Assembly: GCA_009843525.1 (NCBI GenBank)
Contig: VYDH01000016.1
Coordinates: forward strand, 62,001 to 126,000
DNA length: 64,000 nucleotides
Source of the DNA: Acidimicrobiales bacterium
Lineage (GTDB): Bacteria; Actinomycetota; Acidimicrobiia; Acidimicrobiales; Poriferisodalaceae
Reading direction: 5' to 3'
The notes below the pieces were generated by a model, which saw only the letters and a list, made by a program, of their open reading frames with translations, ran no database searches and was not told where the DNA came from. The position numbers and the translations under genes were made by a program. Below, piece by piece: positions 58,975-64,000 of the stretch (its first letter is position 1; each line of letters opens with the position of its first letter).

Positions 58975-61677
58975 TCAGTGCGCTGCCGCGGACCAGGGGT
59001 CGGCGCTGTCGGTGGCCAGGCCGTAGCGCTTGATGGCCTCCGCCGCCGCGCTCGAGTCGATCTCGCCCAGTTCGGCGAGGCGCCACAGCACGGCCACGGT
59101 GATGTGCTCGGCGGTGATCTCGAAGTGCTCCCGCAGCCGGCTGCGGGTGTCGCTGTGGCCGAAGCCGTCGGTACCGAGCGACGTGTAGTCGCGGCCGATC
59201 CAGCGCGACACCTGGTCGGGCACGGCCCGCATGAAGTCGGTCACGGCGATCACCGGTCCCATGCCCTCGGCCAGCTGCCGGGTCACGAAGGGCACCTGCT
59301 GGGGATCGTCGGGATGGAGCGTGTTCCACCGCTCGCACGACAGCGCCTCCTCGCGCAGCGCCTTGTACGACGTGGCGCTCCACAGGTCGACGCCTACGTC
59401 GTGTTCGGCCGCCAGCAGCTCTGCTGCTGCCCGCGCAGCCCCCTGCGCTGAGCCCGAGAACAGGATCGTGCCGGAGTGGGCGCGTCCGGGCGGTGACGGG
59501 GCGTAGCGGTACAGCCCCGCCAGCAGATCCTCCACAGCGAGATCGTCGGGTTCAGGCGGCTGGACGTAGTTCTCGTTGTAGATCGTGAGGTAGTAGAAGA
59601 CGTCCTCGCCCACGCCGTACATCCGCCGGATGCCGTCCTGCACGATGGCGGCCAGCTCGTAGGCGAACGCCGGGTCGTAGGCCTGGCACGGCGGCACCAC
59701 CGAGGCCAGCAGCGGTGAATGGCCGTCCTGGTGCTGGAGGCCCTCGCCCATCAGGGTGGTGCGACCCGCCGTGGCCCCCATGAGGAAGCCGCGCCCCCGC
59801 ATGTCGGCCAGCGCCCAGATCATGTCGCCGACCCGCTGGAAGCCGAACATCGAATAGAAGGTGTAGAAGGGCACCATCGCCACGCCGCGGGTGGCATACG
59901 ACGTGGCCGCGGCGGTGAAACTGGCCAGCGCACCCGCCTCGGTGATGCCCTCTTCGAGGATCTGGCCGTCGATGTGCTCGGTGTAGGACAGCAGCAGGTC
60001 GTGATCCACCGGCTCGTACAGCTGTCCCTGGCTGGCGTAGATGCCCAGCTCGCGGAACAGCGAGTCCATGCCGAACGTGCGGGCCTCGTCGGGAATGATC
60101 GGCACCACGCGGTCGCCGAAGCCCGGCTCACGCGTCATGGCCCGCAGCATCCGGGTGAACGCCATGGTGGTCGACACGGCCATCTCGCCCGATCCCGCCG
60201 AGAATTCCTCGAACGGCTTGGAGCTGGGCATCGGCAGCGCCTTGCGGCACCAGTTGCCGATGCGCTTGGGCAATGGGCCGTTGAGCGCCTTGCGGCGTGC
60301 CATGAGGTACTCGTGCTCGGCGCTGCCGGGCGCCGGCCGGCAATAGGGCGGGTCGTCGGGATCGAACTCGGCGTCGATCTCGTTGTGCAGCCGCAGTCGC
60401 TCGCGGATCGTCATGAGCTGCGTGCGGTTCAGCTTCTTGATCTGGTGGGTGGCGTTGCGGGCTTCGAGGTCGGGCCCCAGCGACCAGCCCTTGACCGTCT
60501 TGGTCAGGATGACCGTGGGGCTGCCCTCGTGCTCGACGGCCGCTTGGTATGCCGCATACAGCTTCTTGTAGTCGTGGCCGCCGCGGGGCAGCGTTTGGAG
60601 GTCTTCATCGGAGAGGTGCTGCACCATCTCGCGCAGCCGCGGATCGGGGCCGAAGAACCGCTCGCGGATGTACTGCCCGCTCTCCACCGAATAGCGCTGG
60701 TACTCGCCGTCGATGGTCTCGTTCATCTTGTTGAGCAGCACGCCGTCGCGGTCGCGGGCGAGCAGCTCGTCCCAGCGGCCGCCCCAGATCACCTTGATCA
60801 CGTTCCAGCCCGAGCCGCGGAAGTTGGCCTCAAGCTCCTGGATGATCTTCCCGTTGCCCCGCACGGGACCGTCGAGCCGCTGCAGGTTGCAGTTCACCAC
60901 GAAGATCAGGTTGTCGAGCCGCTCCCGGGCGGCGAGGTGCAGCGCGCCCAGCGTCTCGGGCTCGTCGGTCTCGCCGTCGCCCACGAAGCACCACACCTTC
61001 GATTCCGAGGTGTTGTCGATGCGGCGGTTGTGGAGGTAGCGGTTGAAGCGAGCGTGATAGATGGCGGTGATCGGTCCGAGGCCCATCGACACCGTCGGGA
61101 ACTCCCAGAACTCGGGCATGAGGCGGGGATGGGGGTACGACGACAGGCCGGTGCGGCCGATCTCGCGCCGGAAGTGCTCGAGGTCGGTGTCGTCGAGGCG
61201 GCCTTCGAGGTAGGCCCGGGCGTAGATGCCGGGCGCCGCATGACCCTGGATGTAGATGTGGTCGCCGGGCTCGCCGTCATCCTTGCCGTGCCAGAAGTGG
61301 TTGAAGCCCACGTCGTAGAGCGCCGCCGAGCTGGCGAAGGTGGACAGGTGGCCGCCGATTCCGTCGGCCCACGAGTTCGCATGAGTCACCATCGCGACGG
61401 CGTTCCAGCGGATGAAGGCCCGCAGGCGTTTCTCGATATCTTCGTCGCCGGGAAACCACGGCTCGTCCTCGGGGGCGATCGTGTTGATGTACGGGGTCGA
61501 GACGGTGGCGGGGAAGTCGACCTGCATCTCGCGGGCCTTGGACATGAGCCTGCGAATGAGAAACCGCGCGCGGTTCTTGCCCCGTTCCTCGACGACTGCC
61601 GCGAACGACTGCAACCAATCGTCGGTCTCATCGGGGTCGATATCGGGGATCTGCTCATGCAACCCGTCAAAGAGCAT
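58975..61677 (-). CDS. aceE: Pyruvate dehydrogenase E1 component, homodimeric AceE
   Basis: The 900-residue protein is a full-length AceE, with the thiamine diphosphate motif GDGETDEPE...NCN, the N-terminal NRARFLIRRLMSKAREM and the DGHSPLLAS and QASVQLWGSGTI-like C-terminal half (LLAAEHDVGVDLWSATS). It decarboxylates pyruvate and acetylates the E2 lipoyl domain; E2 and E3 are not in the window. ATG 61677 is 21 bases from the divergent rnhA start; a GACACT hexamer 7 bases upstream may be its -10. Confidence 0.95.
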   Translation of the reverse strand: MLFDGLHEQIPDIDPDETDDWLQSFAAVVEERGKNRARFLIRRLMSKAREMQVDFPATVSTPYINTIAPEDEPWFPGDEDIEKRLRAFIRWNAVAMVTHANSWADGIGGHLSTFASSAALYDVGFNHFWHGKDDGEPGDHIYIQGHAAPGIYARAYLEGRLDDTDLEHFRREIGRTGLSSYPHPRLMPEFWEFPTVSMGLGPITAIYHARFNRYLHNRRIDNTSESKVWCFVGDGETDEPETLGALHLAARERLDNLIFVVNCNLQRLDGPVRGNGKIIQELEANFRGSGWNVIKVIWGGRWDELLARDRDGVLLNKMNETIDGEYQRYSVESGQYIRERFFGPDPRLREMVQHLSDEDLQTLPRGGHDYKKLYAAYQAAVEHEGSPTVILTKTVKGWSLGPDLEARNATHQIKKLNRTQLMTIRERLRLHNEIDAEFDPDDPPYCRPAPGSAEHEYLMARRKALNGPLPKRIGNWCRKALPMPSSKPFEEFSAGSGEMAVSTTMAFTRMLRAMTREPGFGDRVVPIIPDEARTFGMDSLFRELGIYASQGQLYEPVDHDLLLSYTEHIDGQILEEGITEAGALASFTAAATSYATRGVAMVPFYTFYSMFGFQRVGDMIWALADMRGRGFLMGATAGRTTLMGEGLQHQDGHSPLLASVVPPCQAYDPAFAYELAAIVQDGIRRMYGVGEDVFYYLTIYNENYVQPPEPDDLAVEDLLAGLYRYAPSPPGRAHSGTILFSGSAQGAARAAAELLAAEHDVGVDLWSATSYKALREEALSCERWNTLHPDDPQQVPFVTRQLAEGMGPVIAVTDFMRAVPDQVSRWIGRDYTSLGTDGFGHSDTRSRLREHFEITAEHITVAVLWRLAELGEIDSSAAAEAIKRYGLATDSADPWSAAAH

Positions 61678-61683
61678 GGGTTC

Positions 61684-61689
61684 TAGTGT
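61684..61689 (+). promoter_or_regulatory. -10 element of the rnhA promoter, overlapping that of aceE
   Basis: TAGTGT is 9 bases before ATG 61699. The opposite strand reads GACACT at 61685-61690, 7 bases before the aceE ATG, so the two -10 boxes nearly coincide. Confidence 0.5.
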
Positions 61690-61698
61690 CGCACTTGG

Positions 61699-62763
61699 AT
61701 GAGCCAGATATCGAACGCGGCAGCGCGAGAGGTCTTTACGGACGGGTCATGCCTGGGCAATCCAGGTCCGGGCGGTTGGGCCTACGTGGTCGACGGCGGA
61801 CCGTGGGCCTGCGGCTTCGAGCCCGCCACCACGAACCAGCGCATGGAGGTCGTGGCTGCGGTGCAAGCCGTCGAGGACTTGGACGGGCCGCTGCGGATCG
61901 TCAGCGACTCCACCTACGTGGTGAAGTGCTTCACCGACGAATGGTGGAAGGGCTGGCACCGGCGCAACTGGCTGAACACTGCGAAGAAACCGGTGGCCAA
62001 CCGCGACTTGTGGGAGCCATTCATCGAGGCCGTGCTGGCGCGGGGCGATGTGACGTTCGAATGGGTGAAGGGTCATGCCGGCCAGCGGCTGAACTCTGCT
62101 GCTGACGCGCTGGCCGTGCATGCTGCGGGGGCAGGTGCCGGCCAGAGCGGCAATCGGTTCGACGATGACGTGCTCGATCGGCTGAGCGACCCGCGATCGG
62201 CACCGCAGCGCCCCGCCAAGGGTGCCGTCAGCACCGACGAGCCGACATCGGGGAACCGGGAGATCACCGGTCACGCCGTGGCCGTGCTGGGCCACCGGCC
62301 GCCGGAGCTCGGCGGCTACAACGAGAACCCGGTGTCGCGCAAGGTGCTCCGGCAGTTGAGCGACGTCATTGCGGCCAAGCGCAAGATGCATCCCGATCTC
62401 GTCGTGGCCACAGGCCTCGGGCTCGGTGCCGAGACCCTGGGTGCCGAGGCCGCGTTCGCGGCCGGTGTGCCTTATGTCGTAGTGCTGGCGTTCGAGGGCG
62501 TCGAGCGGCGGTGGCCGGGGCCGTCACGCCAGCGGTTCGCAGAGCTGCGCCAGCGCGCAGGGCAGGAATTCGTGCTCGCGAACAGCGTGCCGGTGGACAC
62601 CGAGGCGTTCGGCAAGGCCATGCGTCGTCGGGACACCTGGTTCATGCACAACTGCGACGAAGCCGTGCTGGTACGTCGCACTGACGATCGCACCTTGGGT
62701 GATCTGTATCGGCGTCTTGAAGAAGCGCTGGACGATGTCTGGGTGATCGAGCCCGGCGACTAG
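61699..62763 (+). CDS. rnhA: RNase HI fused to a SLOG (YpsA-like) domain
   Basis: The 354-residue protein has an N-terminal RNase HI domain (about 8-145) with the complete catalytic set Asp15 (VFTDGSCLGNPG), Glu50 (NQRMEVVA), Asp70 (VSDSTYVVK) and Asp136 (NSAADALA). After a linker (about 146-190) follows a Rossmann-like domain starting VAVLGHRPPELGGYNENP, with LVVATGLGLGAETLGAEAAFAAGVP and VLAFEGVERRWP, which matches the YpsA/DUF1273 branch of the SLOG superfamily (nucleotide- or ADP-ribose-binding). RNase HI cleaves RNA in RNA-DNA hybrids; the SLOG role is unknown. It converges with the SRPBCC gene within CTAG. Confidence 0.88.
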   Translation: MSQISNAAAREVFTDGSCLGNPGPGGWAYVVDGGPWACGFEPATTNQRMEVVAAVQAVEDLDGPLRIVSDSTYVVKCFTDEWWKGWHRRNWLNTAKKPVANRDLWEPFIEAVLARGDVTFEWVKGHAGQRLNSAADALAVHAAGAGAGQSGNRFDDDVLDRLSDPRSAPQRPAKGAVSTDEPTSGNREITGHAVAVLGHRPPELGGYNENPVSRKVLRQLSDVIAAKRKMHPDLVVATGLGLGAETLGAEAAFAAGVPYVVVLAFEGVERRWPGPSRQRFAELRQRAGQEFVLANSVPVDTEAFGKAMRRRDTWFMHNCDEAVLVRRTDDRTLGDLYRRLEEALDDVWVIEPGD

Positions 62764-63218
62764 TCGCCGTCGGCAGGAGCCTCGACGAGCGCAGCCAGCC
62801 GTTCGAGCGTCTTCTCCATGTTCGGCACGTTCTTGCGGTGGGCCCCGATGAGCTCGACACTGCGCGGCAGCTTCGCAGTCGACCAGTCGAAGGTCTCGCG
62901 CACCAGCGTGGCGCCGCCGGGCTGGGGCTCAAGCTGGTAGCTCCAGCGTTGGCCCTGCCAGTGCGCCCAGGTGATCAGGCGGTTCTCCTCGAACTCCAGC
63001 ACACGATTCTTCACGGTGTAGGAGACGCCCACCTTGATACGCATCGAGAACGTGCTGCCCAGCGTGAGCGGTGCATTGCTGGTGGTCAGGCGAGCCAGTG
63101 TTCCCGAGCCGTCGATTTCGCAATGACGGCGGGGATCGGTCAGCACGGCGAAGATCTTCTCCGCGGGGGCGGCGATGAGCCGCTCGACACTCACGCTCCG
63201 CTGGGTCGGCTTGGCCAT
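62760..63218 (-). CDS. SRPBCC (START-like) family protein
   Basis: The 152-residue protein has the helix-grip pattern: SVERLIAAPAEKIFAVLTDPRRH at the start, FSMRIKVGVSYTVKNRV in the middle, ITWAHWQGQRWSYQLEPQPGG and a long C-terminal helix (AHRKNVPNMEKTLERLAALV). Such proteins bind small hydrophobic ligands or act as polyketide cyclases. ATG 63218 has the Shine-Dalgarno AAAGGA four bases upstream. It lies 24 bases after the thioredoxin-like lipoprotein gene, probably in one operon. Confidence 0.82.
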   Translation of the reverse strand: MAKPTQRSVSVERLIAAPAEKIFAVLTDPRRHCEIDGSGTLARLTTSNAPLTLGSTFSMRIKVGVSYTVKNRVLEFEENRLITWAHWQGQRWSYQLEPQPGGATLVRETFDWSTAKLPRSVELIGAHRKNVPNMEKTLERLAALVEAPADGD

Positions 63219-63242
63219 GCTGTCCTTTGGGCGGGATCGGCC

Positions 63243-63857
63243 TCAGGCGGGCGTGAGGGCGTCTTGCACGATGTCGGGCGGGGGAGTGCCGCCGCCGCGC
63301 TCGATGCTGCCGTCGGCTCGCACCAGCACCCACCTCGGCTGGTAGCTCACGCCGAGCTGACCCCACAGCTCGCCGTCTTCGTTGGCGACCTGCGGGACGT
63401 CGCCCAGCTGGTGCTTGGCCACGAAGCGCCGGTACGAATCCTGGGAGTCGCCGCCGGGCACACCCACCAGGACCAAGCTGTCGCCGTGCTCCGCCTTCAG
63501 CGCTGCGACCGCAGGCGCTTCACGATTGCACGCCGGTCACCAAGGCGCCCAGAACCACAGGAGGACGTCGTTCCCGGCTGTCGCAGCCAGATCGAATTGC
63601 TGCCCGTCGAGCAGCGCACCTTCCAGCAGCAGGATCTCGGCTCGGTTCTCCTGTGCGACAGCGGCGGTGGCAGCCGGCTCGGCAGCCGCAGCGGTGTCAG
63701 CGCCGCCGGCCGTGGTCGCGGGCGCCTCGGCAGCAGATGTCGTGGCCGCGGTGTCGCGGGACACGCTGACCTCGACGCTCCCGCAGCCGGCCAGAACGCC
63801 GAGGCCTGCCAGCCCGGCCAGCAGCACGATGACCGCTCGGTACCGCGGATGCGTCAC
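63243..63857 (-). CDS. Thioredoxin-like lipoprotein with selenocysteine at the CxxC site
   Basis: The 204-residue product is read through one TGA at 63537-63539. It has a lipoprotein signal (lipobox LAGC, Cys25), a Thr/Ala linker, then a TlpA-like thioredoxin fold: VLLWFWAPW-U107-PAC110, followed by AVAALKAEHGDSLVLVGVPG and the cis-Pro-region equivalent SYQPRWVLVRADGSI. The active site thus reads UPAC where relatives have CPxC. The frame is continuous on both sides and a SECIS-like hairpin follows (63499-63519). GTG 63857 follows a TAGGCT box by 7 bases. It would act outside the membrane in thiol-disulfide exchange. A nonsense mutation is the alternative but would have to hit exactly this codon. 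Confidence 0.85.
63499..63519 (-). promoter_or_regulatory. Candidate bacterial SECIS element of the thioredoxin-like gene
   Basis: On the minus strand AGCG-(C)-CTGC-GGTC-GCAG-CGCT forms an 8-bp stem with one bulged C on the 5' side and a GGUC loop. The loop is 27-30 nt after the UGA. A bulge in the stem and a GGUC-type loop are features of the E. coli fdhF SECIS. Confidence 0.72.
63537..63539 (-). other. Selenocysteine codon (TGA) of the thioredoxin-like lipoprotein
   Basis: TGA replaces the first Cys codon of the WAPWCxxC active site, with Cys110 three residues later. Confidence 0.8.
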
Positions 63858-63864
63858 CTTGCCG

Positions 63865-63870
63865 AGCCTA
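63865..63870 (-). promoter_or_regulatory. -10 element of a leaderless promoter (thioredoxin-like lipoprotein)
   Basis: On the minus strand TAGGCT is 7 bases before GTG 63857. Confidence 0.6.
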
Positions 63871-63900
63871 TCCCTGGGCCTGGAATGGGAGAGCGCGGGT

Positions 63901-63906
63901 TACATT
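63901..63906 (+). promoter_or_regulatory. -10 element of a leaderless promoter (membrane protein at the right edge)
   Basis: TACATT is 7 bases before GTG 63914, divergent from the thioredoxin-like gene. Confidence 0.5.
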
Positions 63907-63913
63907 CGGCTCG

Positions 63914-64000
63914 GTGAGCACCCGGGCGCTGATTGCTTTGGCTCTCGTCACCGGGATGGTCATCCTGATGGCGTTCGCGGTCCAGGTGCTCATCGCGCTG
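63914..64000 (+). CDS. N-terminus of a membrane or secreted protein (3' partial)
   Basis: Only 29 codons are in the window: STRALIALALVTGMVILMAF and on, a single hydrophobic stretch that could be a signal peptide or first membrane helix. The frame is open to the edge and the start follows a TACATT box. Being divergent from the thioredoxin-like selenoprotein gene, it could be a cytochrome-biogenesis-type partner, but nothing in the sequence shows that. Confidence 0.5.
   Translation, partial: MSTRALIALALVTGMVILMAFAVQVLIAL

Follow-up and report, generated by a model that had tools for sequence, protein, structure and literature searches.

The locus and its reading frame

The minus strand of the window, meaning the whole 64,000-nucleotide stretch analysed here, contains a gene whose product is, very probably, an exported redox protein anchored to the membrane, with selenocysteine (Sec) in place of an active-site cysteine (Table 1). 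In a standard list of open reading frames this gene is split into two pieces, one of 106 amino acids (63537-63857) and one of 77 (63243-63476, with a TTG start). The preliminary description had proposed that these two half-frames join in one frame over one TGA, and this is indeed the case: the joined frame has 204 residues and a single internal TGA. The thioredoxin-type UxxC site it had read there, WAPW-U-PAC, is likewise present in the joined translation, whose active-site region is DVLLWFWAPW-U-PACNREAPAV.

Table 1. Features of the locus, with positions in the window
Feature	Position	Strand	Basis
Predicted selenoprotein gene	63243..63857	minus	GTG start codon (63857); codon 107 is an in-frame UGA; terminator UGA (63245-63243)
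Predicted signal peptide, residues 1-24	63786..63857	minus	Predicted by eye; hydrophobic stretch preceding the lipobox
Lipobox LAGC, residues 22-25, Cys25 the presumed lipid anchor	63783..63794	minus	Own pattern rule
Ala/Thr-rich spacer	63654..63782	minus	Translation
Thioredoxin-like (DsbE/DsbF/ResA type) domain, residues 69-204	63246..63653	minus	Pfam, AlphaFold2, fold search
UGA codon, predicted Sec107, first active-site position (UxxC)	63537..63539	minus	Aligns with Cys of the Cys relatives
Cys110, second residue of UxxC	63528..63530	minus	Cys or Sec invariant in the 46 sequences of alignment A4
Bacterial SECIS-like hairpin, +18 to +38 after the UGA	63499..63519	minus	Pairing, covariation, synonymous-site constraint, folding
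SECIS apical loop GGUC, +27 to +30	63507..63510	minus	Invariant in the 40 distinct sequences of family alignment A2
START/polyketide-cyclase-like gene, conserved downstream neighbour	62760..63218	minus	Pfam PF10604

Conservation of the UGA and of the downstream frame

The conservation search covered 60 relatives beside the genome itself. An orthologue with one TGA is present in all 10 other genomes of the genus, at 71-96% identity, and a TGA-bearing copy occurs in 24 of the 26 genomes from the family's other genera; the two exceptions, G022 and G036, yielded no UGA orthologue, only matches with no stop. The TGA falls at the first active-site position in all 34 of the genus and family orthologues, and in the phylum beyond the order all 20 further UGA-bearing loci (from 19 genomes) are UxxC. 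Not every match with one TGA is a Sec site, however, since in three weak matches (L101, L103, and L104, at most 41 bits) the TGA lies outside the active site. According to the preliminary description, random disrupting stops in close relatives would speak against selenocysteine; wherever the active site was read, the homologues have either UGA or Cys at this codon and no random stops, the sites having been picked by a regular expression that does not count strongly divergent ones.

The frame past the UGA is under purifying selection. Comparison of the 11 genus orthologues gives a dN/dS of 0.09 over the 38 codons that precede the UGA and of 0.17 over the part between the UGA and the stop; read in the two wrong frames, the downstream part has pN/pS values of 1.4 and 2.9.

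The order of the surrounding genes is also maintained. The START-like gene adjoins all 10 genus orthologues and 23 of the 24 from the family (33/34, the exception being L091), and lpd is found near 10 of 10 and 20 of 24, respectively, with the same counts for rnhA. These comparisons used flanks of ~1.5 kb, and thus the absence of a neighbour is weak evidence. Outside the family, L095 has both neighbours, and L094 has lpd. Within the genus, the conserved order runs on into E2 and lipB/lipA. The gene lies between aceE/rnhA and lpd/E2/lipB/lipA (58975-64000 of the window; 5382-10681 of L069) in an order that is largely conserved; these names, of pyruvate dehydrogenase and lipoate genes, come from the translations alone. 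A functional tie to lpd/E2/lipB/lipA was considered and set aside: the neighbourhood is conserved, yet no mechanism follows from it. The enzymes encoded by lpd/E2/lipB/lipA are cytoplasmic.

A pseudogene or a sequencing error, in which the UGA would be a true stop and the gene broken, accords with the way standard gene calling splits the gene, and a single genome could indeed hold such an error. However, the UGA recurs at the same codon throughout the genus and in nearly all of the family genomes, the low dN/dS persists past it, and the gene order is kept. Given the conserved UGA and the constrained downstream frame, this explanation was rejected and retains next to no probability.

The hairpin downstream of the UGA

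The bulged hairpin with a GGUC loop 27-30 nucleotides after the UGA, as initially described, is found in the sequence. It reads AGCGC-C-UGC-GGUC-GCA-GCGCU, with 8 pairs, one bulged C, and a loop that begins 26 nucleotides past the UGA, and as a 26-nucleotide segment it folds with -11.6 kcal/mol. Of 20000 resamplings of the 20 codons after the UGA, with the protein kept, 1554 produced a bSECIS-like hairpin of at least 8 pairs and 68 produced the exact form (GGUC at +27 with at least 8 pairs). Within the window, 97 of the 1422 TGAs on both strands are followed by a bSECIS-like hairpin of at least 8 pairs; only one, the UGA of this gene, has GGUC at +27 with at least 7 pairs. Folding z-scores are -1.84 for 26 nucleotides, +0.94 for 51 (where another fold is preferred), and -1.58 for 60, and at 48 nucleotides an alternative structure is preferred for the window sequence and for many relatives. 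A search of Rfam with positions 62500-64000 gave nothing relevant, the one match being a chance match to mir-3150 (19.6 bits versus a gathering score of 100). Taken alone, the hairpin is weak evidence, and single-sequence folds are not decisive; what places it beyond chance is its conservation across relatives.

One sign of this conservation is seen at synonymous sites. In the 11 genus orthologues, synonymous differences are zero in the hairpin codons, +7 to +13, compared with 0.31 before the UGA and 0.28 past codon 13.

Covariation was assessed in three alignments. A1 contains 54 distinct Sec sequences and leaves out 14 Cys sequences and 14 UxxU sequences, the latter having UGA at both active-site positions. 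A2 consists of the 40 of these 54 rows that come from the window's family, chosen by taxonomy. A3 is a hand-chosen set of 31 rows (9 family representatives, 8 others from the order, and 14 UxxU) out of the 68 distinct ones with Sec or UxxU; it leaves out a subgroup with a WAPH/GPL motif.

In A2 the GGUC loop and pairs 25-32 and 26-31 are unchanging, while pair 24-33 is UA in 21 sequences, GC in 17, and CG in 2, and pair 23-34 is CG in 38 and GU in 2. The covariation score of 0.235, against a shuffle mean of 0.089, was reached by none of 500 shuffles; the number of further pair types was matched in 97 of the 500. A shift of the 3' side by +1 leaves a score of 0.177, with 26 double-change cells versus 29. 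In the fixed register the outer pair 20-37 is unpaired in 33 of the 40 sequences, 21-36 in 20, and 22-35 in 21, and regular pairing is confined to the inner four pairs. RNAalifold recovers the hairpin from A2 unaided, with six pairs, four of which show double changes.

Pair 25-32, invariant within the family, varies in the wider A3 set: it is AU in 14 sequences, GC in 13, UA in 3, and unpaired in 1. The covariation score was again reached by no shuffle, and two other measures were reached by 96 and 84 of 500. Column 25 is a first and column 32 a second codon position, and their codons lie two apart; thus the residues they encode covary as well, as A-V-A, T-V-V, or S-V-E, in agreement with the pairing of the bases, with L043 (S-V-V, unpaired) as the exception. 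The hairpin seems to constrain the protein sequence too. In A1, with all 54 sequences, pairing holds in 72.7% of cells and no shuffle attains the covariation score; two other measures were reached by 89 and 353 of 500, and RNAalifold returned no structure for this alignment.

By a simple rule requiring at least 5 pairs, all 54 distinct Sec sequences and all 14 UxxU sequences have a bSECIS-like hairpin, as opposed to 2 of 14 Cys relatives. The specific form with GGUC at +27 and at least 5 pairs occurs in 45 of the 54 Sec and all 14 UxxU sequences; the other 9 Sec sequences have a different hairpin. In the WAPH/GPL-U subgroup (L096, L098, L099, L100, L102, and L105), the best hairpins are mostly at +35/36, ~9 nucleotides farther downstream, and have GUU in the loop, resembling that of the selD gene described below. 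Under this rule, the 17 scored loci of the phylum beyond the order have stems of 5-9 pairs; 1 has GGUC at +27, and the hairpins of the others are at +35/36 (12 loci), +26 (3), and +18 (1). The other three loci, which the first motif filter had missed (L137, L138, and L142), have GGUC at +27 by eye.

Selenocysteine machinery and its co-occurrence with the UGA

The absence of selB or selC had been named as evidence that would speak against selenocysteine, and a search for selA, selB, selC, and selD had been suggested. All four components are found in the genome, which is 3.34 Mb in size and 94% complete: SelA (381.3 bits), SelB (277 bits), SelD (352.4 bits), and a tRNA-Sec with the anticodon tca (66.3 bits), each over its cut-off. 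The genes for SelA and SelB adjoin on one contig. SelD (L072, G000:C5:68078-69031) has a UGA of its own in frame, at HGAG-U-ACK, and behind it a hairpin that reads, by eye, GGCGCAG-GUU-CUGCGCC.

In the order, 177 of 298 genomes have SelA. Among the matches listed, SelA is present in 92 of the 94 genomes with a UGA-bearing copy and in 3 of the 10 with only no-stop matches, a count that leaves out 17 of the 121 matching genomes. The Fisher p value of 4e-24 is uncorrected for kinship and, since the genomes are related, overstates their independence. The two order genomes with a UGA copy and no SelA match are G105 and G202 (~80% complete). In the phylum sample, 184 of 296 genomes have SelA, and outside the order the contrast is weaker: SelA occurs in 17 of 19 genomes with a UGA copy versus 7 of 12 with only no-stop matches (by eye), the exceptions with a UGA copy being G574 and G562 (93% and 73% complete).

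These data bear on whether the UGA might be read as an ordinary amino acid, through either a general change of code or readthrough by some other tRNA. The frame would be open under any code in which UGA has a sense meaning. However, 4 of the 8 window genes that were checked terminate in UGA, the predicted selenoprotein gene among them, and the Sec machinery is present, the hairpin covaries, other relatives have Cys at this codon, and UGA copies co-occur with SelA. We therefore regard this reading as very improbable, and a change in the genetic code was rejected.

Domain, fold, and lipoprotein features

The window protein has above-cut-off Pfam matches to Redoxin, AhpC-TSA, Thioredoxin_8, and Thioredoxin, of which Redoxin and AhpC-TSA are the best. 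Among proteins of solved structure, those nearest to it in sequence are M. tuberculosis DsbF (3ios, E 3.5e-22) and MPT53/DsbE (1lu4, E 3.1e-19). An AlphaFold2 model (pLDDT 91.7, pTM 0.87) gave the same two proteins first in a fold search against solved structures, DsbF with a TM score of 0.81 and DsbE/MPT53 with 0.79, followed by ResA. The thioredoxin fold together with a CxxC-type site (C or U) that characterizes TlpA/ResA/DsbE-like oxidoreductases is thus found here. In alignment A4, a Glu three residues past the second active-site Cys is nearly invariant; we take its position to be that of ResA Glu80, as the spacing fits the ResA variants named for Cys77 and E80Q.

No NCBIfam model matches the window protein above its cut-off: it scores 42.1 bits against a cut-off of 170 for ResA, 34.5 against 123.15 for DsbE, 42.9 against 230 for TlpA, and 30.6 against 300 for WAxxUGC_long. 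By these profile scores it would be classed as a relative, not a member, of the four subfamilies. At E 0.001 or better, the ResA and DsbE models match 46 of 46 members of A4, and NF040769 (SelL_rel_redox) matches only 4 of the 46.

The best Pfam matches raise the alternative of a Sec peroxidase, peroxiredoxin-like, in place of a disulfide exchange protein. In line with this, Prx and Prx-like proteins are among the larger Sec families of marine data, as given in the available part of PMC2398784. The closest sequences and folds, however, are those of DsbF, DsbE/MPT53, and then ResA, and ResA and DsbE are the NCBIfam models that match every member of A4, even though the window protein itself lies far below their cut-offs. 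A peroxidase is thus rather unlikely.

The protein had also been described as a lipoprotein, and a LAGC lipobox, identified by our own pattern rule, does lie behind a hydrophobic N terminus, as predicted for such a protein. By our own regular expression the lipobox pattern is present in 71 of 83 relatives scored, three loci with too short an upstream sequence being left out. In the 8 genus orthologues scored, the lipobox Cys precedes the Sec by 80-93 residues.

A proposed mechanism

Together, the conserved frame, the covarying hairpin, the Sec machinery, and the fold make it highly likely that the product is a Sec lipoprotein belonging to the TlpA/ResA-like thiol-disulfide oxidoreductases, in their actinobacterial DsbE/DsbF branch. 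SelB carrying Sec-tRNA-Sec would bind the GGUC-loop hairpin that begins 17 nucleotides downstream of UGA107, and the ribosome would insert Sec at this codon. The protein would then be exported and anchored to lipid via Cys25, so that its thioredoxin domain could exchange disulfides with presumed substrates outside the cell membrane via a Sec107-Cys110 selenenylsulfide. In this exchange Sec107 would attack and Cys110 would resolve.

The redox partner may be the CcdA/DsbD-type membrane protein of the genome, in which there is one DsbD_TM/CcdA match; no match to VKOR was found in this genome (94% complete). The CcdA/DsbD_TM gene directly follows a Cys-type TlpA-like gene (L134 720-2403). Because CcdA adjoins a Cys-type TlpA-like gene of its own, its link to the Sec protein is one that we infer.

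The direction of the reaction is a further question. The protein could act as a ResA/CcmG-like reductant instead of a DsbF-like oxidant. Sec often favours rapid reduction at a low potential, and the presence of DsbD_TM/CcdA, with VKOR not found, leaves room for the reductant route. On the other hand, CcdA sits beside the Cys-type TlpA-like gene, and M. tuberculosis DsbE and DsbF, which are described as periplasmic, fold hirudin oxidatively and showed no reduction of insulin (PMC3853704, available part), a result that would favour an oxidant. Overall, we rate a reductant at slightly under an even chance.

Paralogues and a branch with two UGA codons

Each of the 11 genus genomes contains a second copy of the family, also with one TGA and 46-51% identical. 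In these 11 copies the Sec follows the lipobox Cys at a distance of 216-260 residues. The second Sec protein of the genome under study (L070 5437-5823; G000:C18:206915-207343) has an acidic spacer of Glu-Glu-Val/Ile repeats, which contains an assembly gap. In another genome (G241, L127), a Cys copy (345-731) directly precedes a Sec copy (1095-1481), and the Cys copy is without a hairpin.

A side branch, L114-L126, comprises 14 genes at 13 loci in 13 genomes of the order, all 13 of which have SelA; this set leaves out G140:C360, 1 of the 15 two-TGA matches listed. The motif is W[FL]WAPW-U-P[FH]-U-R: both active-site positions are UGA, and a single GGUC hairpin follows. The first UGA is 26 nucleotides and the second 17 nucleotides before the same loop. 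The lipobox pattern is present in 12 of the 13 genes scored. A tree of 89 domains and 129 columns requires 8 changes among Cys, Sec, and Sec-Sec, with 39 of its 86 inner branches open, and the 14 UxxU sequences form one side of a branch with an SH-aLRT of 100.

A broader picture seems moderately probable to us. In this order and in other actinobacterial lineages, much of the extracytoplasmic disulfide chemistry may be selenium-based, carried out by an old, syntenic Sec-DsbF lipoprotein that has been repeatedly duplicated. One of its branches, WFWAPW-U-PF-U, with two UGAs that are separated by two sense codons and share one SECIS, would be a diselenide enzyme anchored to the cell membrane on its outside.

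The group affected consists of environmental bacteria known largely from metagenomes, and since standard calling splits the gene, a family of exported selenoenzymes would escape notice in them. Within the family one enzyme occurs in three forms, Cys/Cys, Sec/Cys, and Sec/Sec, and L127 adds the pair of a Cys copy beside a Sec copy; with these forms available the benefit of selenium to a thiol-disulfide enzyme becomes directly testable.

Comparison with known systems

M. tuberculosis DsbF (3ios) and DsbE/MPT53 (1lu4) are like the window protein in sequence, in fold, and in the LWFW-[AT]-PWCPxC site region, but they have Cys at the first active-site position, where the window protein would have Sec.

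Sec proteins of a related kind have been catalogued. A 'Redoxin family protein, PF08534, UxxC' and a 'Thiol-disulfide isomerase-like, UxxC' protein are listed in PMC13188914 and PMC9312934, and a 'Prx-like 3, pfam08534, UxxC' protein in PMC2398784, in the available parts of each. These share the Pfam domain and the Sec motif with the window protein, the comparison being by listed domain only, and these classes may well include its family; the redoxin-family representatives in the catalogue are HEU0032618.1 and MBA3499694.1. The gene thus joins an already known kind of selenoprotein. Accordingly, the suggestion that an exported Sec thioredoxin-like lipoprotein is unusual holds only in part: redoxin/TlpA-type UxxC selenoproteins were already on record (PMC13188914 and PMC9312934, as available), while the lipoprotein form is not described in the literature examined. 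That literature, as far as available, includes PMC13188914, PMC9312934, PMC2398784, PMC1088965, PMC5029168, PMC1794560, PMC12013277, and PMC3853704, subscription papers being mostly outside its scope; it likewise contains no account of the DsbE/DsbF kinship, the maintained gene neighbourhood, the linked changes in RNA and residues, or a UxxU branch in this family. In the available text of PMC13188914 the terms Actinobacteri-, Actinomycet-, DsbE, ResA, and lipoprotein are absent, as are Actinobacteria, DsbE, and TlpA in that of PMC9312934. For the Actinobacteria, 12 families and 19 selenoproteins have been reported (PMC1794560, in part).

UxxU has been listed in Prx-like proteins (PMC13188914 and PMC9312934), along with a 'UGC-containing TlpA' (PMC13188914), again in the available parts. 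The UGA-to-loop range of 16-37 nucleotides given in the available part of PMC13188914 accommodates both UGAs of the UxxU genes. The Prx-like UxxC/UxxU proteins there have two Sec, as would L114-L126; the latter are instead DsbF/TlpA-like and lipobox-bearing. The proteins of NF041054 (WAxxUGC_long) are also ResA-like with Sec in WAxxU, but by the name of the model their motif is U-G-C, whereas that of the window protein is U-x-x-C. Finally, SelL, a name that reportedly goes with a paper of 2007 about a redox motif with a diselenide (cited in PMC2398784), has UxxU with two Sec, as the L114-L126 branch would have.
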